Assembly (NCBI GenBank): GCA_964036195.1
Contig: OZ038450.1
Location: 5,148,701-5,212,700, forward strand
Length of the DNA stretch: 64,000 nt
Direction of reading: 5' to 3'
Source: Sphaerolaimus hirsutus
Lineage: Eukaryota; Nematoda; Chromadorea; Monhysterida; Sphaerolaimidae
In this document: in pieces, positions 3,001-53,905 of the stretch
Position numbering within the stretch: position 1 is the stretch's first letter
How the letters are laid out: each line of letters opens with the position of its first letter
Notes under the pieces: generated by a model
Databases searched by the model: none
Seen by the model: only the letters and a program-made list of their open reading frames with translations
Told to the model about the DNA's origin: nothing
Made by a program: the position numbers and the translations under genes

Positions 3001-6000
3001 TCATTTAAATGAAAAGGAGGTTTCTTTCCATGCCATTCTTCTTCTTGTTTGTGAAAAGTACCCTTTTCCCTAAAAAATACACCCCCCGATTTACAGGTAG
3101 GTTTCAGCGCCGGCCCCTCAGCGCAGTCGCAGTCCAAACCGTCGCCCGTGGCGCACTACGCCCTGCCCGGCTCGGGCACCGCCGACGCGCATTTGGTGGC
3201 TAACAACTCGGACATTGGCATCCCCGGGGAGTGGATGTTTAGAGTCGATTTGAGCGAGAGGGTGCATCTTTGTGCCCCTGGGTTTAAGGGATTGGAGTGT
3301 ATTGATAGTGGGTTGGGGGGGGGGGTGAATGTTCATTTTGCTGCGCTGCTGCACCGGAGGTTTTCCTTATTGTTCAATGGGGTTGTGCCATTTTATCCGT
3401 TTGAACGCGTCTGTTTTACCAAGTAATATCACCTCGTATCAATCCAAAGCGCACATGCGTGGGGTGTGGAAATGAACCATTATAAATTCAGCTAAGTCAC
3501 GATTCACTGCTGAAAGGATGTCAAAGATTCATTTCCAACAGTTTTTCCAGTGTACAACTACAAATTTCACGCATTGCAAGGAACTTCGTGGTGGTGCCGC
3601 AGCCAGACCCTGTAAAATGTCAAATATCATGCAACGTGTCAAAAGTCATGTAAAATGCCCTATAAACTAATTTTGCCATTTTCCAGGGCATTTCACATGA
3701 CTTTAGTCACTTTGCATGTCATTTGAAATTTCACAGGGCATTTCACAGGGCAAAAAAGTCCACTTCCAAACCTACCCCAAACACCCCCCCCCCCCCCCCA
3801 CCCAACCCAGAGTGTTCCCCGGGCGAGTGGTTCTACGATTGCGCGCGGGCGTGCCACTGCGCCGGCCAGCCAGACTGCAGCACGGCTACCGGCGTGTGCA
3901 CGAGCGGCCGCTGCAACGACGGGTGGGCCAATGAACCCGTTTGTGATCGGGGTCGGTTTGGGGGGTTGTTATTTTGGGAGGGGGGTTGGGGTGAGAAAGG
4001 GGTTCTGATACTGATTAAGTCTGGGGAAAATGTCGCGATTTTTCCGGTTCTGGTCTCGATTTTTTACTTTTTCTTATCGTGCTCCTGATCAGGACGATTG
4101 CAATTTCACAGTTCTGATTTTGATTCGTAAAATATTGGCCCGTTTGAACTTTGAACCCTGCTCGTAGATATTACATAATTTCAGTTTCTGTTCTGTCTCC
4201 AGTGGATTTGATTATATATTGTATTTATTTGTATTTGCGTATTATAGAACATTGTGTTTCTTTAGCGTGAGTTTGCGTGATGAATGATGATTACCATCTA
4301 TGCTTGAATAAATTCCTATAACACAAACCCCTCTTTACGAAGCATAATATCACTGTGTTGAAAAAGGTTTATGGGCAAAAAAGCAAGCTTCCAATACGCT
4401 TCTCTCCCAAAATTATCATGGAAAATTCAAAGGGAATTTATTCAATCGCTTACGGTAAACATTTCAATGTCATGTGTGAAAATTGCATCGTTAGCCCCCC
4501 GCATGTCCCCCATTGTTTCCACCTGTGTCCAACTATGAACTCTTTCAATTTAAATTGCGGGTACTGCGGTTATTGCGGGTAATTAGAACGTAAGGCGCAA
4601 AGGCTCGCGAGTACCGTACCCGCGCCTTACGTTCTAGTTGAAGTTACGGCCTGGTCCTAGTCCCAGACCCTGTAAAATGCCCTGAAAAATGTCAAATGTC
4701 ATGCAAAGTGTCTAAAGTGATGTAATGCCCTGGTGCCGGTCGCGCAAATTACAAAGTAAAATGGCAAACAATTTTTACAAAGTGAAAAGGATAGCAGGTT
4801 TCGTCCCTCCTCGTGGACCTGCTCCCATTATAACTCGGGACTCACCAGCATGACCACTACTGGGTACTTAATTGTTGCGTTCCATTAAACCTTTGCCATT
4901 TTCCAGGGCATTTTACATTACTTATCACACTTTGCGTAACATTTGACACTTGACATGGCATTTTACAGGCCCTGTGAGCGCCCCCAACTCTTGCCACAAT
5001 ACCTCAAATCAACATAGACATCGACGAGTGCGCCGTGCGCGGGCCGGACCTGTGCCCCCCGCAGCAGCCCGACTGCCTGAACACGCCCGGCGCCTACCTG
5101 TGCATGTGCCTGGCTGGGTACGACGAGAGGACTAGGGCGTGTAAAGGTGAGGTGCCTGGCGCCTGAGGTGGTCTTAGGTGCAATTGGAGTGTAAGGTGCA
5201 CTAAGGCGCCAGATAGTGTCGCTGTGCACGTTTCCATGGGTGTTTACTCGCGTGTAAGGCGCCTTATGTGCCTCTTGGGTTGAGGTATATTTAATTGGCG
5301 GCCCACACACTATTTGACACATGTGTGTCAACTCGTCTGTGTCAACTCAAATTTCGGCTTCACGTGTTGCCAAATGTACATGCGGCAGTGTTGAAAAATG
5401 AATATGACGGCAGGTGCATTGGAAGATCGCTCTGCAACAAGTGAAGCCGAATTTGGAGTTGACACAGACTAGTTGACACACAAGTGTCAACTAGTGTCCG
5501 GACCGCCATTGAATTTCGGGCCAGGCGCTTGTGGTTAGGGAGGAATGAGGATTTTGGTATGAGGGAATAAATCTTAGTTTTCATCTAGCGGTTTATGCAT
5601 TTCACAGTACTGCATAACGATATCATTTCTTGCATGCACTAATAATAAAATACCTTAAATTTATTCACTAGATATTCAAACAATTGCATGACTAATCCCG
5701 ATATCGCATGGAGGAGTATTGTAAACTATCATCGAAATGTTTATTATCAGCGCGACACATTTTTTTGGGCTAGTGACCTTATTCATTAAAATACCTCTGA
5801 TCTTTATTGAGCATCATTGTGGAGCATGCTGTATAGTCACTATCACTATATGCAGAACTAATTAAAGCAGACTACGTACATAATACTAAAATCTGTTGTC
5901 TGAAAACAATCTCCTCCCATATCTCCACTATAAACACTAAAACGATCATTTTATCTAAATAAACAAAAACATAGTTAAAACGACAAATCCCCCCACGAAA

Positions 6001-35860: not shown

Positions 35861-36322
35861 ATCAGGGGGCAGTCCCAAGCCCTGTAAAGTGTAAAGTAAA
35901 GTGTCAAGTCAAATGTCAAATGTAAAGTAAAGTGTCAAATGTAAAGTCAAGTGTCAAGTCAAATGTCAAATGTAAAGTAAAGTGTCAAATGTAAAGTCAA
36001 ATGTAAAGTAAAGTGTCAATTGTGTATCCAAATCTTATTTTTCGTATCCAAATCTTATGTTTTTGTATCCAAATCTTGTTTTTCGAAATAAGATTTGGAT
36101 ACAAAAACATAAGATTTGGATACGAAAAAAAAAATTTGGATACACAATTGACACTCTACTTTACATTTGACATTTGACTTGACACTTGACTTTACATTTG
36201 ACACTTTACTTTACATTTGACATTTGACTTGACACTTGACTTTACATTTGACATTTGACTTGACACTTTACTTTACATTTGACACTTTACTTTACACCTT
36301 ACAGGGCTTGGGATTGGCACCA
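35861..36322. repeat. Giant foldback of family A in the 3' UTR region
   Basis: An inverted repeat with arms of about 200 bp, centred near 36085. Arms are built of short blocks (TGTCAAATG, TAAAGTAAAG) and, near the centre, of repeated TATCCAAATCTTATGTTTTT units. Ends GGGGGCAGTCCCAAGCCCTG and CAGGGCTTGGGATTGGCACC match family A. It starts about 105 bases after the stop of the NIDO/EGF gene. Confidence 0.8.
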
Positions 36323-37769: not shown

Positions 37770-40700
37770 TTAATACCTAAAAACCTTTACGCACTGCGTA
37801 GGGGGATCGCACACGGCCACCAGCCCATCTGGGGTCACTGTGATCCCTTGCGGCGCCTGTATGATGGCGTGTTGAATTGTTTGTTGATGTAAATAAAAAA
37901 CTGGAATTTAATTATTCCGGTAGGTCTTTAGGGCAGCGCGATTCAATCAGGTTTTGCGTACATCGGTGCCTAGATCGATCGACTGCGATCGATCGAAAAA
38001 ATTCGAAATTCGAAAATCCATTTTAGGAAAAATACAAAAAATTACATTTGCCATTATCAGCGTAAGCGTCCCATAACCTTCACCCTCAAATAGCCCCCCC
38101 AGCCACCTTGACGCCCATATTGACGCTGACCAAACTGGCGATCGCCCTGCCGTCCCTGTCGAGCATCTGGACGCGCGCGTTGCCCCACTCGGCCACCAGC
38201 ACCAGGGGGCAGTCCCAGACCCTGTTAAATGCCATGTAAAATGTCAAATGCCATGCAAAGTTCAAAAGTCATGTAAAATGCCCTGCAAAATGGCAACTCG
38301 GTTGCCATTTTGCAGGGCATTTTACATGACTTTAGACACTTTGCATGACATTTGACATTTTACATGGCATTTTAGAGGGTCTGAGATTGGCACCAGGCCG
38401 GCCCGGTCGCCGGCGATGGCGATGCCAGTGGGCCCGTTCAGGGCGCCCGGCCCGCTGCCGTAGGTGCCCATGGTGCGCGCCAGGGCGCCCGTGCGCAGAT
38501 CGTACGTCTGGGTCGGGTAAAAAGTTTTTTTTGTGGGGTATTGATAATTTAAGTTTGATAGTTTTCAAGGTCATAACAGCGCTGTGAAATGACTGTAGTT
38601 ACACTCATGATGGAGCTGCATAAAAACAACTTGGGGGAGGAAAACACGATCTTTTACGAGTCGCGATTATGCGCACACCACTTTTTCAGTGACATCACTG
38701 CAAGAGACACCCGAAAGTTTAAAACATGGGGGCAGCCCCGAGCCCATTAAGGTGCAAAGTCAAGTCTTAGAGTCAAGCCCATTCCGCATGTAAACCCATC
38801 CCGCATCTAGACCCATTATAGACACATTATACCCGCAGGGGTAAGAGAGGGGGACGGGTGACCCCACCCCAAACCGCCCAGCTATCTATCTATCCCTGGC
38901 AGACATTTTTTTGGCAACTTTCCCCTGAACCAATTGCCTAGCTATCTAGGTAGCTATCTTGTGCGCTTTTGAGCAGTTTTACCCTAATTTTCACCAAAAA
39001 TCGCTAATTTTCGTACTTCATATAGATTTTCACCTTCAAAATCATTAAGTCATGTGTTTCATTGCCCATTTTCAGCATGCCGGGCATAATTAAATGTGTT
39101 TCGGGTAGTGATGGAAAAGCGCCAGAAAAAATGGCGCCAGGCGCCAAGGGTGCCATGGCGCCATATGAAATAATGGCGCCAGGCGCCAGATGGCGCCACA
39201 GAAAAGGGCGCCAAGCGACAATGACGCCATGGCACTGGCGCCCTTTGGCGCCATTCCATCACTAGTTTCGGGTCAACATGCGGGATGGGTTTACATGCGG
39301 AATAGTGCAGAGCCCAAGTCTTATGTACTGTAAAATGTCCTAAAAAGAGTGTAGGTACCTAGATTTTGTTACTGAAATTGTGAAACTGCATGACAGACAA
39401 ATTTCTATAACATTTTACTTAAACTTGACTTTACACTTTACAGGGCTCGGAACTGGCAACCAGAAGTAGGCAGACTGACCTTTACCGCGTGGTTGTGGAA
39501 ATCGGTTATAGAAACCAAGTTAAATTCGTTCGCGTCCACCGTATCTATGGCGCAGTAATGCGGCGCAGCCAAGTCGGTCGCGCAGCCGGGCACGCCCGTC
39601 CTAAAAAAATATCCACAGATTCATCCGTCTACTCCACTTCCCACCTCCCACCGAGATATTCAAAATCCCAGCGGGTACCCGGAAAGTACCCGAAATCGAC
39701 CTGGTACCCACGGGGCTGCCCCTGAGCCTGATAGCCCTGCCGGCGGCCGCGTCGTACACGCACAGGCAGCAGGCGCGCGAGTCCACGCAGAGCAGGTCGC
39801 AGCCTCCCCGCCGTGTGTCCACGCACAGACCCCGGGGGCCCAGCAGGCGACCCGCGCCGAAACTGGGTTGGGGGGTTGAAAGGGGGTCCGGTTTGGGGGT
39901 GGTAATGACTGAGTTACTACTAGGTGGTAAAAGTTGCATGTACCGTATTTCCTCGAAATACCCCCCGGGGGGTGATTGTTTCATAGTGGTCCCGAGAGGG
40001 GGGGGGTTAAACGAGGGGGGGGGTATTTCAAGGGGGGGGGTATTTCGAGGAAATACGGTATTTGTGTATAGGTATTAGGTTTTTAAAGTAGGCTTGAACT
40101 CCGTGGAGATAGTGGAAGCATTCGATGTGAAGTGTACGATCACATTAACATTTAGATTGAGAAACAAGTTACAAACAAACAAAAATCAATTTTCACATTC
40201 TGGGCCAGTCCTACCTAAAGTCCGAAATGTTAAATATCATGACAAATGTGTAAAATGAACCGAATAATGCAAAAGAAAGCTTACCATGCATTACGTTTTA
40301 CACGGCATTTGACAAATTTGTGTGACATTTTGCATGACAATTCGTGCGGTGCCGTATCGGTCCTACTCCTAGGTGACTATAAAACCGACCAATTTCAACC
40401 ACGCACCGAAAGAACTCACCGCCCAATGAACTTGTAGCTGGTGCCGTCATAAATATTGATATACTTAGTGTCGAAATCGGACACAAAAATCCTGTTGTAG
40501 GCGGCTGCGTGTGCCAGGCCAGTGGGGCGTCGCAGGGCGCCTCCAGCCTCAGCTGAGGCGCGCCCGCCGAACTGCCGCTCGCAGAGACCGTCGCTGGTGA
40601 ACACCTTGGATTTTGGGGGTATTTTGATGAGTGGTGGCCCTGAATTTTTCAGGAGCACTGTGGAATAGGATTTCACGTTTCTATACTCGGCGGACCTGCA

Positions 40701-43700
40701 AAGTAAAATATGCATCCGCACATGTATGCATGCGCTCGCTTATGTCTCATGCAACAAACGCTCCAATGCTACACTTTACATGCTACATGTACCCACTCTC
40801 ACAACAAAAAACTAAAAATTATTTTTTTTCTTCAGAAAAGGCGGAGTCGCGAACAAACAACACAATTTTTTCCTGAAACGTTTCGTTTTTGAATAACTGT
40901 TATTTTATTTAAAATGACGTCATGATGCAGTGTTTTGTTCAGAAAAAAACAGCGTAGAATACTTATAAACACTTATATTCCATTCGTGATTTCAAGATTA
41001 GATTACGCTCACCTTGACAGTCTGATGCTGGGAGTCGGTGACCAGAAACTTGTAATCTCTTGGCTCATTGCCAGTGGGCACACAAATCACAGCCTGCGGG
41101 TTTGTGAAGTCTGCCATCCGACGACCCGCCTGGCCCAGCTGTAATATTCAAAGTTTCAATAGATAAATACTTATATTTTCAGTAGAATTGGAATTTACGT
41201 GACATGGCTTTTTTATTTTTAGTCAAGGAATTTAAGTCGGGGTTTTTGAAGGACAGTGTAAGGCACCACTTAGTGTCCTTTGCTGACGCCTTTTTTGGAA
41301 TGGCTCCAGACATTCAGTAATCAGAGTTATCAACGGTTTGATTCAATCAGTGTCCTTGTTACCAGTTAGGCACCGTTTCTTTAAAAAATATCTGATATCA
41401 TTGGCGCACAGGTCGACCTTAAGCTAAATACGCCCTGGGCTGGCGACATTATAAAAAAACTTTTCCTCAATGTCTAAAATACCTAACTTTTCTACTGTGG
41501 GCATTCCAACCTGAAATACGAACTGGTCCACGTTGGCGGCGTTGTGTAGCGCGGGCGCGCTGTGCCTGGCGCCGCCCTGGATCGCGCTGGCGCTCGCGCT
41601 GCGCACCTTGGCCGGGCTGCTCTGCACCGACACCGACGCCGAATTGCACATTATGCCCTGCGAGAAGGGACTAGTGATGTATAAGCGCCATGGCGCTTTT
41701 GGCGCTTGGCGCTATTTTGCTGTGGCGCCATTGGCGTTTGGCGCCTTGCCCGTAGGGCTCGAACTCGACTCGACTCGACTCGACTCGTGACTCGAGGGTA
41801 AAAAAGGGTACCGACTCGACTCGTCTGACTCGACCGGAAAAGTATGGCCCAAACTCGAGACTCGCGGTTTTTGCCCGACTCAACTCGAAATTTTGACAAA
41901 TTTCGAGTCAGGGTTTCTATTGAATAATGTCCTAAAATATCAATTTTGATATGAAATTTTAAACCTACTTTTCAAAAATTTTGCACGCGAGCGCGCATTA
42001 TCACACCACATGCATGATATATTGTGGATTGGCTTGGCATATGTATTGAATGGTGTTAAAACTAAAATTTCGTATTGCCATACAAATCTACATAATGTGC
42101 ATGTGCACGTTAGTTTAGCACCAGATTTTGGTAAACTCATAAATCGGCTTTGATAAAAGTCATTTGAGTTTACTGAAATGAGTTATTCTTAATCCCAATC
42201 AACTGCAGTTGACAGATACATCATTATGGTAAATTCAAATGCATTCAAAGCCGATTTATGAGTTTACCAAAATCTGACAGTAAACTTGATTTTTGCTTTA
42301 TCTTGATATTTAAATGAACTGTTGGCATTTAGACTCCATTAAGTGTGTGTGAAAACATTGGTAGAGAAACCAGTATCAAAAATTACTGCAAGGGTCATAC
42401 CAAAAAGTAAGGCATCCGACTCGACTCGAGACTCGAGATTTTTGCTCGACTCGACTCGATCGTTCACTGGCTCGCCCGACTCGACTCGCCGACTCGACCG
42501 GAAAAAATTTGAGGTTGCGACTCGAACTCGAGTTTGAGAAAAATCGAGTTTCGAGCCCTACTTGCCCGTGAAAAATGCCATGGCGCTTTTTTCGATTGGC
42601 GCTATCTTTTCCCGGCGCCAGGAACAAAATACCTGGCGCTCACGCATGGCGCAAGCGCCAAAGCAAAAAGCGCCATGGCCCTTCTGGTAGTTGGCGCTGT
42701 GGGTCGCTTTTGGCGCTTTGCGCCCAAGTCCCGGCCCTTTTTACATCACGAGGAAGGAGTTTTGAGTGTGGACTGTCGAGTGTCCTGTTAGAATGAGGTG
42801 GCAATTTGACGCGAGAAACGTGACTACCATGAAACAATTGGTTATTTTGAAAAAATATACCTAGTTATTTTAGGTAAAAAATAGCAATCTCAGAAAGTTC
42901 TCAAAAAGAACATCTAGGTAATTTAAGTCAAATCGAACAGTCACCATTCCAATTGTCAAACCTGTAGGGCGGTGTGTTTGGCGATGCACTGGATCAAAAT
43001 GGGCGGGCCGCCGAGTCTGCAACCAAGGCTGTACTGCTTGCCGGCGCTCGAAGTCGTGTCTTGGCTGCCCCTGGCGCTCACACTTCTCCTGGGGGCAGTC
43101 CCAGACCCTGTAAATTGCCCTGAAAAATGTCAAATGTCACGCAAAGCGTCCAAAGTTGTGGAAAATTCTCTGGAAAATGGCACACGTACGTGTGCCATTT
43201 TCCAGGGCATTTTGCATGACTTTAGACACTTTGCGTGACATTTTACATGGCTTTAGACACTTTGCGTGACATTTTACATTTTGCAGGGCATTTTACAGGA
43301 TCTGGGATTGGCACCTGGGTGTGCCCGTGTTGCCCGGCGCTCGACACGAACGAATGATGGCCATGTACAAGCCGGGCTTGCGTAAGGTGAACAGTAGGCG
43401 CACGCTGGTCGAATTGATGGTTACCTGGTAAATTAAATTCAATAGAGTGACCTTCATCAGAGCAGTTCCATCAAAGTACACAATCCCGCAACTAGTCCCA
43501 CACCCTGTAAAGTGTAAAATGCCGCACAAATGTGTAGAATGTCAGGTAAAATGCCCGGTAAAAATCAGAGAAAATTTTAATGAAAAATATTTCGGACGTT
43601 TCACAAATTTCTGTGACATTTTGCATTTTACACAGTGCGGGATTGTCCCACGATCAAGTCTTAAACGTCTAGAATCTAGATATCTCCAATACTCATCTAC

Positions 43701-46700
43701 ACCTCTGCCAGTGCGACCACAAACCTGCGCCAGCGGCTGTGCCACATCGCAACCAGACGGCGACCAGCGCACCAGCGCGCACTCCACCTCACCAGATGTC
43801 AGCGGGGCCACCCCATCATACACTTCACCGTCACCGTTGCGATTGTCATTTGCCAACGACAACATCGTGTCAGCGTTGTCAATCGACCGCGTCAGTTGGT
43901 CGGAGATTGTCGGCGTGCTCGCGTCCTGCTCGGGTTGGATGTAATGCGCCAACATTGTGCTGGGTTGTGAACTGGACATTATAGATGTCTGGTGATTGAG
44001 GTTGTCCAAGATGTCGTTGGATATGTTGCGATGTTGTGATGTTGTTGTTGGGTGAAGGTTGATGGTGATGGAGCTGGGCCTGGGGAAGAATGAAATTAAC
44101 ATTTTGGCAGTGCCAGTTTATGCAATTACCTAATCTCTCTTAAGTAGTGCCTAAAAGACAACCCCCTTTTCATGGCCAATTCTTGCAGCGCATCAAGTGG
44201 GACATGGCAAATAATAATTCGAAAACTATTTTTGGGTAAAATGCAAAGATTCAAAAAGCCCATTTTAGAAAAAACGCTTAAAAATTAAAACATTTTTTCC
44301 ACAAGGTTTGCCATCGTCAGCATGGAGAATTGTCATCTTACTTAACAGTTTTTTTACACTTGACAGTGAGGCTGCGTCATAATCACCGGAGTTATTGTCA
44401 TCACTAGCCAACTTGTTTTGGATGCACACAATGGTGCCGGTATCGTTCATCATTCTGGCGCTAGCTGGCGCCAATGTGTAGCTGGTATTTATCGCATTTC
44501 TGCTGTCAATGGAGCCGCATAATTTGGCGCCCTCCAAAATTTCCTCGAGATTTTCCGGCGTAAAATGCAACTGCATCTTTTCTGCGTACGTTCGATCGTT
44601 CGCCATTTTTTCGTAGGCAGAAAGGCGTTTGTTGATGAGCCACCGAAGTTTCTCTGAAAAAGATTGCATAGCAGTTGTATTTTATATTTTATGACGAGTC
44701 AAGTCAAGTCACAGATAAACTTAGAAGTATAAAGTTACAAGTATTTTCACCTACAATTTAGGTGCCACTTGACAACCAGTTCACTTGACTAATTATTACA
44801 ATTTACCTACCTAGTTGTACCTGACCTTGTCTCTTTCAAGCGTCCTCATAACCTGGCAATTTGCGGAATCAGCACAAGTTCAAAGTCAATGAATTTTTAG
44901 ACCAACCTGCTTTTTGGCGTAATGAAATCAGCTTGTCAAAAGAAGAAAAATCATTGTCATCATTGCTGCACGATTTCTTTAGCGTTCCATCAGCATCACA
45001 CGAACTGTTAATGTCAAGTTCAGTTTGCAATTCCTCGCATAGTTGTAGCAAGCTACTCTGAAAATTTTTGTGGGATTTTTTCGGCAACATGTCATTCAAT
45101 TGGAAGCTGAAAAACTCGAAATGTAGGGTCTCGTATAGCCAACGATGGGTAAGTTCTCCAAAAAAAAACACTTTCTGTGTTTTGAGTTTTTCAAAAATGA
45201 ATACCTGTGTTTTGAGTTTTTTTCTCAAAAAAAACTTGAGTAACTCTGTTTTTATTTCTGTGTTTTTTGTAAAAACTTGAGTTTTTTTGAGTTTTTTTTT
45301 CTCCAAAATATTTGAGTTTTCCCCCAAAAAATTCTGATTTACAGCATTTCGATCTGGAAACAGTGGTTTTCTTATAAAATATTGGTTTTGCACATGTTTT
45401 AACCCCACATAACATTTGTGTATTCATTCAAGTGTCTAAAAAGTCCATAAAAATGCCCACAATGAGGACATCAACATCACAACACCAGCAACAAAATGCT
45501 CAGAAACTACAATTTACGCAGTACTCCAAAATCCTTCAATGGATGTGCACTGTATGGAAGACTACAGAATTGATTTGAACTACAACTACCATATTACCTT
45601 GAAATACCCCCACGGGGGTTTATTATTTTGTCAGAAAGTTTTGTAAGGATCATAGAAAATAGTAGGCATTTATGTACCCAAAACAGGTTATAAATGCGTA
45701 CAAACAGGATATATTTGAAATAAACATGTAGTTAGCTACACAACCTAGTACTGTCTATGTGTAGCTGCGATGCAAATTAGCAGTGATAAATACACCATGT
45801 ACATTGGATACATGATGTACATCATCCCGGAGGGGGGTATTTCGAGGGGGGCTTATTTTTTCACCAGTCCATTTTGAGGGGGGTTAATTTGAGGCATTAG
45901 GTATACTTAAATGTTGAAACTTGAATTGTCAAATCCACCATGAGATGTGCAAGCCATCTTTAATTTCTTTTTTGTACCATTATAAAATATGAATAAATTA
46001 TGTACATATTTACATACTATACATGCATATCTTATCTTGTTTAGTTTAACTGAATTAATGTGCATTCAACCGCTTCGCTGAAAAAAACACAAAAACTCAA
46101 AAAACTTTTCTGTGTTTCCGTATTTTCTGTGTTTCTGTGTTCTCCAAAAAAAAACTCATTTGAGTTTTGAGTTTTTCAAAATTTATGAGTTTTTGTGTTT
46201 CTGTGTAAAACAAAAACACAGAAACTCAATGAGTTTCTGTGTTCAATTTCTGTGTTTTTTCCATCGTTGCGTATAGCTTCTCATGGCATGGCATAAACAC
46301 CTCCAACAAATAGGGTTAAAGTTCTTTCACGCTTCTTGAGTTCTTGACGCAAAAAGTTAAAAAATACACGATCCATAAGAAAAAATATCCACGCCAATTA
46401 ACCTTCCTGTGATGGCACTGATCCAACGCGGCACTGGTTTTATTTCTAAGATGATCGTGCAGAGCGTTTCTCCTCGCATCCAGTTTCGCCGCGGCGCCAT
46501 CAAAGGTGCATTCAATAGCCCGGCCCGCTTCACTGGCGGCAGACTCTATCTGCGGAAAGCGCATAAAATATGCATGGCTTCGCCTTTGGTGCAGTTTGTG
46601 AACTGGCCAGTTTTTGCGGCGACGGAATGCGACAGCTATCGAGGTCCAGATGTTGGGTATTTTGAACGTAAACTGTGGAAAGTATACTCCGGTTACTTTA

Positions 46701-50137: not shown

Positions 50138-51262
50138 GTACCAATCCCAGACCCAGTAAAATTCCCTGTAAAATGTCAAATGTCATGCAAAGTGCCTAAA
50201 GTCATGGAAAATGCCCTGTAAAATGTCATGTAAAATGCCTAAAGTTTTGGAAAATGCCCTGTAAGATGTAAATGTCATGTAAAATGCCTTAAGTTTTGGA
50301 AAATGCCCTGTAAAATGTAAAATGTCATATAAAGTGCCTAAAGTCAGAAAATGCCCTGTAAAATGTCAAATGCCATGCAAAGTGTCAGAAGTCATTTAAA
50401 ATACCATAAACACAGTTTGCCATTTTCTAGAGCATTTTAGAGGGTCTGGGAGAGCTCCCTGGACAGACGCTTCATTAGAATTCACTGTAAACATTCACAT
50501 CTGCACCTTCAGTCAGTCGCTGGACTTTCCAATCAATAAGGTAAGTCAATTGGGCGCTTTTTCATGACCGCCAGCGGGACTAGCAAGTTTCTGTTCCAGC
50601 GGGCCGCCGCCTCACTCAAAGCCATCCCGCGGCCGCGCTCAATAGGAAATAAGCTACGGTGTGGGTCATTTGAACACGATGTGGTAATAAATTTGCATGT
50701 GGATCACCCGGCATCCTGAATTTTCTGTCACGCCGCTGATAACGAGTGATTCTCTTCGCGAGCTGTTTTATTAGCGCCGGCGCGGCCACCATGTATGCAA
50801 CATCGCGACGCGCTCGCAAAACTTTGCGCTCGCCCTTGTGCTTGACTGGAGGGCCGCGCGTAGACAGTCGGGCTACAATGCATACAGACTGCATGCACGC
50901 ACGCGGACTAGCGACTGGTTGCTGTAGTAGCGCATGGATTGTTGCAGCTGGCGACAATTTTAGTGCCACGTTCAGTGCCAGTCTAGGTAGGGACAGTACC
51001 AGACCTTGTAAAGTGTAAAGTAAGGTGTAAAATGTCATGTAAAATGTCACTCAAAACAACAAAATAGACAATTTTTTACTGAACTTTAAATGACCACTTT
51101 ACAGTTTACAGTGTCTGGGATTGCCACTTGGTGCCACTGCCAGAACCTGTAAAATGCCCTGTAAAATGGCAACCTAGTTTACAATTTTCCAGGACATTTT
51201 ACATGACTTTTGACAATTTGCATGACTGTTGACATTTTACAGGGTCTGGGAGTGTCTCCTAG
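50138..51262. repeat. Cluster of three family A copies upstream of the NHL gene
   Basis: 50138-50463: extended copy with several repeats of GTAAAATGTCA..GCCTAAAGT, with ends TACCAATCCCAGACCC and GGTCTGGGAGAGCTCC flanked by CTGG. 50995-51122: short copy. 51128-51262: copy with ends CCACTGCCAGAACCTG and CAGGGTCTGGGAGTG. Between them, 50560-50990 is GC-rich single-copy-looking sequence and could be promoter; no exon is supported. Confidence 0.5.
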
Positions 51263-52889: not shown

Positions 52890-53905
52890 CAGGGTTGGCA
52901 AAATCTCAGAAAAAAATAAAAATAAAATAAAATGGAATATTCAAGAATAAAATAAAATAAAATGGAAAATTTAAGAATAAAAATAAAAATTGTATAAAAA
53001 TTCGAATTTTTGTAAAATTTTTGTAAAATTGTATAAAAATTCGTATTTTTGTAAAATTGTATAAAAATTCATATTTTTTGTAAAATTTTGTTTCATTGCT
53101 TGAGTCTCTACCTGTTTATTCATGGATCTGGGGGCAGTCCCAAGCATTGTAAAGTGTCAAATGTCATGTAAAATGACATGCAAAGTGTCAATTGTCATGA
53201 CAAATGTAAAGTAAAGTGTAAATCGTCATGACATGTAAAAATTAAAGTATCAATTGTCAAGCAAATTGTGCTCAAATCTCATGTTTAATTTCGAAATCTT
53301 ATGTTTTGTATCCAAATTATGTTGTTGTTGACTCCAAACTTTATGTTAACATTTGGATACAAAAACACAAGATTTGGATCTAAAACATACTATGGATACA
53401 AAAACACAAGATTTGGATACACAATTCACACTTTGCATGACATTTGTCATGACAATTGCCACTTTGCTTGAAATTTTACATGACACTTGACATTTTGCAT
53501 GACAATTGATACTTTGCATGACATTTTACAAATGTGCCAAGCACACTCCAGTAGTCCTTCTATTGAAAATGCAAACCATTCTTATCAATAATTGTAACTT
53601 TACACTTGCAGCTAGCTAACAATACATACTGCATGCAACTTTTGAAAAGTAAGGGAAAAATTTGTCACAGGTTTTTCATGTATAGGTCAAATTATAACAT
53701 TTTTCTGGCCTTGCATGCATATTTCTGATTTTTTGTAAAATTTTTGTACAATTTTTGTAAAATTTTTGTAAAATGTGTCATTTTATTTTATTAATGACTT
53801 TTGGGAATAAAATAAAATAAAATAAAATGAAACAAGAATAAAATAAAAATAAAATAAAATTTTTATACAATTTTACTAAAATGAATTTTTATAAAACCAA
53901 CCCTG
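52890..53905. mobile_element. hAT-like non-autonomous element, ends CAGGGTTGG/CCAACCCTG
   Basis: Exact 8-bp duplication CCTTTGGG at 52882-52889 and 53906-53913. Subterminal arrays of AAATAAAATA at both ends and TTTTTGTAAAATT blocks. It has no coding sequence. A family-A copy (about 53130-53545, with GGGGGCAGTCCCAAGC) is nested inside it. Confidence 0.8.

Follow-up and report, generated by a model that had tools for sequence, protein, structure and literature searches.

A family of hairpin transposons that very probably makes introns in the nematode Sphaerolaimus hirsutus

The origin of new spliceosomal introns, and the way in which a random insertion obtains a usable 3' splice site, are long-standing questions. 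In the nematode Sphaerolaimus hirsutus, the sequence of one repeat family makes it very probable that a short non-autonomous DNA transposon, a hairpin MITE, inserts at CWG and creates an intron when it lands in the sense orientation in an exon. The family records its own history: the target copy in the exon keeps the original base, while the copy in the intron shows what that base has become. The family further suggests that a NuwaI-like element can make introns in an animal.

In the proposed mechanism, the element would insert at CWG and duplicate its target, and a sense landing in an exon would give rise to an intron. The donor GT would be the first two bases of the element, and the downstream copy of CWG would terminate the intron. 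A CAG target would yield a ready GT-AG intron, whose removal, judged by sequence, would restore the coding sequence exactly. A CTG target would yield an intron born as GT...TG, and its downstream T, now intronic, would tend to become A and thus form AG, as the asymmetry between target copies described below suggests. The predicted hairpin would leave a few terminal bases unpaired, bring the splice sites together, and bury an internal AG located about 20 nt before the end. The spliceosome would presumably then remove the element.

The first copy was encountered in a 64,000-nucleotide stretch of contig OZ038450.1 (the window), at positions 43089..43314 of the minus strand. It forms a predicted GT-AG intron of 226 nt, made up of the element (43092-43314) and the downstream copy of the target site duplication (TSD), CAG (43089-43091). 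The upstream TSD copy, CAG (43315..43317, minus), closes the preceding exon (43315..43424, minus), and the following exon occupies 42962..43088 (minus); both exons come from a hand-drawn model. Direct reading of the junctions in gene sense gives ...GGGCACACCCAG|GTGCCAATCCCAGATCCTG......CAGGGTCTGGGACTGCCCCCAG|GAGAAGTGTGAG..., which bears out the original prediction that the 226-bp intron consists of one foldback (inverted-repeat) element and one copy of its target. A single frame across the junction had also been proposed, and the joined translation is indeed open (GNTGTP-R-RSVSARG). The acceptor AG lies, as suggested, within the second target copy, and derives from the duplicated CAG. The duplicated sequence itself was given as CCAGG; this word is present on both sides, but the true duplication is the 3-bp CAG, as other copies differ outside it. 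With a 3-bp TSD, the G of the donor belongs to the element, and the earlier description of GT as a target G joined to an element T was mistaken. The placement of the intron between NHL exons was likewise incorrect, since copy 1 lies upstream of the NHL propeller, which begins near 41138 in the 11-exon partial model. The RNA fold of copy 1 has a predicted energy of -122.7 kcal/mol (z -15.3), which was equalled or bettered by 0 of 200 shuffles. A different foldback element, whose inner words are similar, is located at 43494-43656, inside the preceding intron (43425-43724), and does not form that intron.

The genome comprises 348 Mb in 762 contigs. Its mitochondrial COX1 is arthropod-like, with 65-70% identity to the named proteins, from insects, among 120 listed matches, and 90% to one further protein in that list. 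The family is abundant in this genome: the exact 18-mers of the 5' end, CCAGGTGCCAATCCCAGA and CCTGGTGCCAATCCCAGA, occur 423 and 322 times, respectively, while reversed-pattern controls occur 0 times. These exact 5' ends thus comprise 423 with CCAGG and 322 with CCTGG, and the exact 3' ends comprise 632 with CCAGG and 674 with CCTGG. Copies were drawn from 28 loci found by DNA similarity (8 + 20, the query itself among them) and from 120 places found by the 5' 18-mer (30 CCAGG, 30 CCTGG, and 60 further CCTGG). The surplus of CCTGG is a sampling choice, so that CTG and CAG totals should not be read as population figures, and in the 18-mer places the base ahead of CWG is set by the choice of CCWGG. 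A 3' partner was present within 330 nt for 123 of 163 distinct 5' ends, and the removal of three double readings left 120 copies, of which 91 could be typed; the 72 untyped 5' ends comprise 40 unpaired, 3 double-read and 29 untypable ones. Flanks with a GC content of at least 0.5 were classed as GC-rich, GC standing as a proxy for coding. The 18-mer places supplied 93 pairs, typed and untyped together, of which 47 have such flanks. From the end counts and this GC-rich share, it can be estimated, rather than counted, that the family may account for a few hundred introns.

Comparison of the 120 copies gives a TSD of 3 bp, CWG, often within CCWGG. In further copies, ACAG, GCAG or TCAG stands ahead of the element and CAG-A or CAG-C behind it, and in the similarity set the bases around CWG vary on each side. 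At a TSP1-type gene, the overlap between the BLAST pieces for the two flanks is exactly three bases, CAG. These findings make CWG the TSD and assign the whole donor GT to the element; a 5-bp TSD was ruled out on the same grounds, since the bases beyond CWG differ between the two sides. Four similarity loci have ends that fail the search pattern; all of them start with GT, three end in AG and one in TG. Signs of transposition that mark introners are therefore present in the form of the CWG TSD and inverted repeats, and likeness over the whole length up to the splice sites was found for 16 copies in different domains and in an alignment of 84 elements. The window contains a further family copy at 50138..50461 (plus), with CTG on both sides and AT-rich flanks, outside any recognised exon. 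Other long foldback elements in the window lie at 35865-36321, 53148-53530, 5291-5513, and 42112-42286, and one of them has 199-nt arms with 90% complementarity.

Copy 1 shares its host gene with a second copy. The modelled part of this TRIM2/3-like gene spans 37770..44079 (minus), with 11 exons and 10 introns that include both copies; its 5' end is outside the model. As the model was drawn by hand to satisfy an open frame and GT-AG borders, the eight other GT-AG introns are not independent evidence. The modelled protein has 542 residues, with the 5' end missing, and residues 240-542 match the TRIM2 structure 7b96 (E 6.9e-50). The 1304-nt intron of this gene carries short repeats of the CGACTCGACTCG type at 41757-41840 and 42420-42500.

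Copy 2 (38203..38393, minus; 191 nt) has the same strand and orientation as copy 1 and interrupts a conserved NHL motif. It consists of the element (38206-38393) and the downstream TSD copy CTG (38203-38205), while the upstream copy CTG (38394..38396, minus) is exonic. The model and the TRIM2 alignment both place the first half of the split NHL exon at 38394..38507 (minus) and the second at 38107..38202 (minus). When the flanks are joined they read AGDRAGLV-LVAEWGNARVQ, and the TRIM2 alignment continues unbroken across the junction. Since the target is CTG, precise excision would need GT...TG. Two alternative acceptors were rejected: removal as GT-AG at GCCGAG|TGG would lose VLVAE from a stretch conserved in TRIM2, and an AG inside the element would leave 19 extra nt and shift the frame. 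In the assembly, copy 2 matched only its own locus, and no second copy of that locus was found.

The same arrangement recurs in unrelated genes. Pfam domains run through the joined flanks of 15 copies elsewhere (three below curated cut-offs, one marginal), which with the NHL match of copy 2 makes 16 copies with a junction-spanning match. Those of CTG/CTG type (upstream/downstream target) lie in NHL, 7tm_1 (L025), DOMON (L027), SNF (L128, E 1.2e-27), Trypsin (L082), GT_PLOD (L116), and Sugar_tr (L130, slightly under the cut-off). The CTG/CAG type is represented in UCH (L029), Cnd1/Adaptin (L101), Peptidase_M14 (L123), TPR_P4H (L133) and a zinc finger, and the CAG/CAG type in TSP_1 (L007), ABC_tran (L055), Filament (L059) and another zinc finger; both zinc-finger copies (L042 and L072) are below curated cut-offs. 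In two more copies, L026 (Na_Ca_ex) and L043 (cadherin), the match does not cross the junction but falls next to it. In genes unrelated to one another, copies thus part conserved coding sequence whose halves join in an open frame; this supports the original suggestion that this high-copy foldback family is an intron maker. That removal restores the coding sequence is seen in the genomic letters only; a protein search for a near-identical transcript product found none. Wnt, GRK, KSR, Na/Ca exchanger and intermediate filament subtype are presumed likenesses for single copies, except where matched by Pfam.

The Pfam matches come from two runs of different design. The first used 20 peptides chosen by eye, in sense only, of which 13 matched and 7 did not. 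The second used a random 20 of the 58 GC-rich copies in sense and antisense, with the best frame chosen by length, and gave a match for 4/20 in sense and 0/20 in antisense (p 0.11, not significant alone). Codon models indicate a sense excess. For copies outside training they gave 18 sense and 3 antisense calls (p 7e-4), which are lower bounds, as the models miss known coding copies such as a GPCR; of the three antisense calls, two have high scores for both strands. Score differences for the 55 GC-rich copies outside training placed 25 in sense and 7 in antisense, with 23 unclear.

It might be supposed that the introns at these positions are old and were invaded later by the element, and some SLC6 paralogues do have split matches near the same position. 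However, the ends of the element are the splice sites, the TSD straddles the junction, and the typed copies carry no extra intron sequence. The SLC6 comparison itself also argues against an old intron: 18 other places match through residue 22 of the SLC6 copy (C3:11.445 Mb), with at least 10 residues on each side and in one stop-free frame. Four further places contain stops, and 16 give one-sided or partial matches, one pair of them about 400 nt apart. Many SLC6 paralogues thus appear to lack an intron at this site, and some may have one nearby. Later invasion of old introns is accordingly regarded as very improbable. Among the thrombospondin-type paralogues at C13:3603144-3638190, an introner occupies the same site in all three places.

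The typed copies allow the upstream and downstream copies of the TSD to be compared. In GC-rich flanks, there are 24 CAG/CAG, 0 CAG/CTG, 17 CTG/CAG, and 17 CTG/CTG copies, with 10 untyped; in flanks of lower GC, the corresponding numbers are 2, 3, 6, and 22, with 19 untyped. In GC-rich flanks, the downstream base is A in 17/34 CTG targets and T in 0/24 CAG targets (Fisher p 1.6e-5). In AT-rich flanks, it is A in 6/28 CTG targets and T in 3/5 CAG targets (p 0.11). Where the base has changed in GC-rich CTG copies, it became A in 17, C in 3 and G in 1, with two unassigned (p 1e-5 against one third). The upstream target copy is exonic and preserves the original base, whereas the downstream copy is intronic and carries A more often than its partner predicts, in coding-like flanks only. 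The asymmetry fits selection for an AG acceptor and hence spliceosomal removal, with CTG insertions maturing by T->A.

The element is also predicted to fold throughout its length. The 189-bp consensus forms 88 predicted base pairs, and when both copies and the consensus are folded in silico, the splice sites are predicted to be unpaired at the foot of a long stem. An AG lies about 20 nt before the end of the element in 17 of 18 copies examined, within the predicted stem, and the sequence outside the stem shows no evident branch point. Among 84 aligned copies, the hairpin arms co-vary, with 198 compensatory cells against about 25 expected under independence. Co-variation was considered as a mark of selection on the RNA and rejected, as the excess is shared by copies with GC-rich and with AT-rich flanks; the arms seem to be homogenised or copied as a hairpin. 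Such nearly perfect hairpins raise another explanation, in which the hairpin is cut from mRNA regardless of its orientation and without the spliceosome, for example by SOS splicing (excision followed by RTCB ligation). According to a review (PMC13247085), SOS splicing takes transposons out of animal mRNA; that it is blind to orientation is an assumption. The sense excess and the limitation of the downstream AG excess to coding-like flanks instead point to the letters of the splice sites, making this explanation improbable.

The role of the copies that still end in TG is less certain. There is not far short of an even chance, on the sequence patterns above, that GT...TG introns are truly spliced at birth, the hairpin joining their ends and masking the upstream AG, and that they mature singly to GT...AG by T->A. 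If this were true, intron birth would be visible in two stages, the exonic target copy still holding the original base. Seven CTG/CTG copies are located inside recognised domains (six Pfam, one TRIM2). A competing view, of somewhat less than even probability, is that the CTG/CTG copies are unspliced, being recent harmful insertions or marks of dying genes, and that only the CAG copies are introns. The median distance to the consensus is 0.055 for TG copies, against 0.082 and 0.079 (p ~0.08, not significant). This slightly smaller divergence fits the transitional state, and it also favours recent insertion. The favouring of T->A implies that TG is worse than AG, and human TG sites occur only beside an AG (PMC2374985), both of which speak for unspliced copies. 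Against this, the domains that hold the seven copies, including SLC6 and the NHL propeller, are otherwise intact, and of the CTG copies typed in GC-rich flanks, half are CTG/CTG, which is many for one reference assembly.

Several known systems resemble this family. NuwaI, a PHIS (PIF/Harbinger-ISL2EU-Spy) transposon, has a 5'-CWG-3' TSD and TIRs of 12-61 bp usually starting with GGG, occurs in animals, including a crustacean, and has an autonomous element with a DDE transposase and a Myb/SANT partner (PMC4482050). The present family shares the CWG TSD and one terminus that starts with GGG, GGGGCAGTCCC. Its other terminus, in contrast, is GTG and makes the donor, its ends are GGGG/GTGC, and its inverted repeat exceeds 61 bp and spans the element. 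Searches for an autonomous partner gave 163 PF13359 matches in the genome, and neither of the two loci inspected (L112 and L113) carries the family termini. The family resembles NuwaI in its TSD and one terminus; with a second terminus of another kind, and no autonomous partner found, it is called NuwaI-like only. The DDE_Tnp_4 matches number well over 100 at near-equal score, covering about 630 nt for 147 positions with an in-frame TGA, which suggests an internal intron. The transposase-like open frame at L113 has at its start an inverted repeat of about 200 nt, and the translation suggests an end like CTGCCCCCAG.

Non-canonical intron ends are known from other organisms. Introner elements of Amoebophrya have inverted repeats that pair the intron ends, direct repeats of 3-5 nt, and non-canonical borders (PMC7789003). 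Paired ends, short direct repeats across the borders and non-canonical borders are all found here, but the borders in Amoebophrya vary widely and a family-specific inverted repeat went undetected, whereas the present copies form a single family in which the donor is GT and the end CAG or CTG. In human U2 introns, TG 3' splice sites are known from 36 genes, and only where an AG no more than 28 nt away serves as the alternative site (PMC2374985). The TG ends described here also have an AG within 28 nt, although TG would be the sole precise site. In Fritillaria borealis, most introns are non-canonical, their removal being attributed to the U2 spliceosome, and the same discussion takes in introner transposons whose splice sites are weak (mentions in PMC12621601 and PMC13326754). 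Both animals thus have introns with unusual ends; in F. borealis the non-canonical introns are the majority, while TG ends are seen here in this introner family only. In the literature covered on introners and related topics, to which subscription papers contribute little, no recognised account of CWG-target or TG-ended introners was found.

Anatomy and the genomic pattern place the family among introners of the DNA-transposon type, as described by Gozashti et al. (2022, PMC9860276): introns in unrelated genes that are alike over their length and have TIRs and TSDs. Across animals and land plants, the 2022 survey detected introners in just two groups, both of them animal. One of the introners in that survey, from Chrysochromulina, brings its own 5' splice site and co-opts the 3' site, with a 4-bp TSD and no TIR seen. 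The present family likewise shows whole-length likeness, TIRs and TSDs, with one splice site carried by the element and the other taken from the TSD. It differs in that the 3-bp CWG ends in AG or TG depending on which base W happens to be, that the hairpin spans the whole element, and that the intronic target copy bears an excess of T->A.
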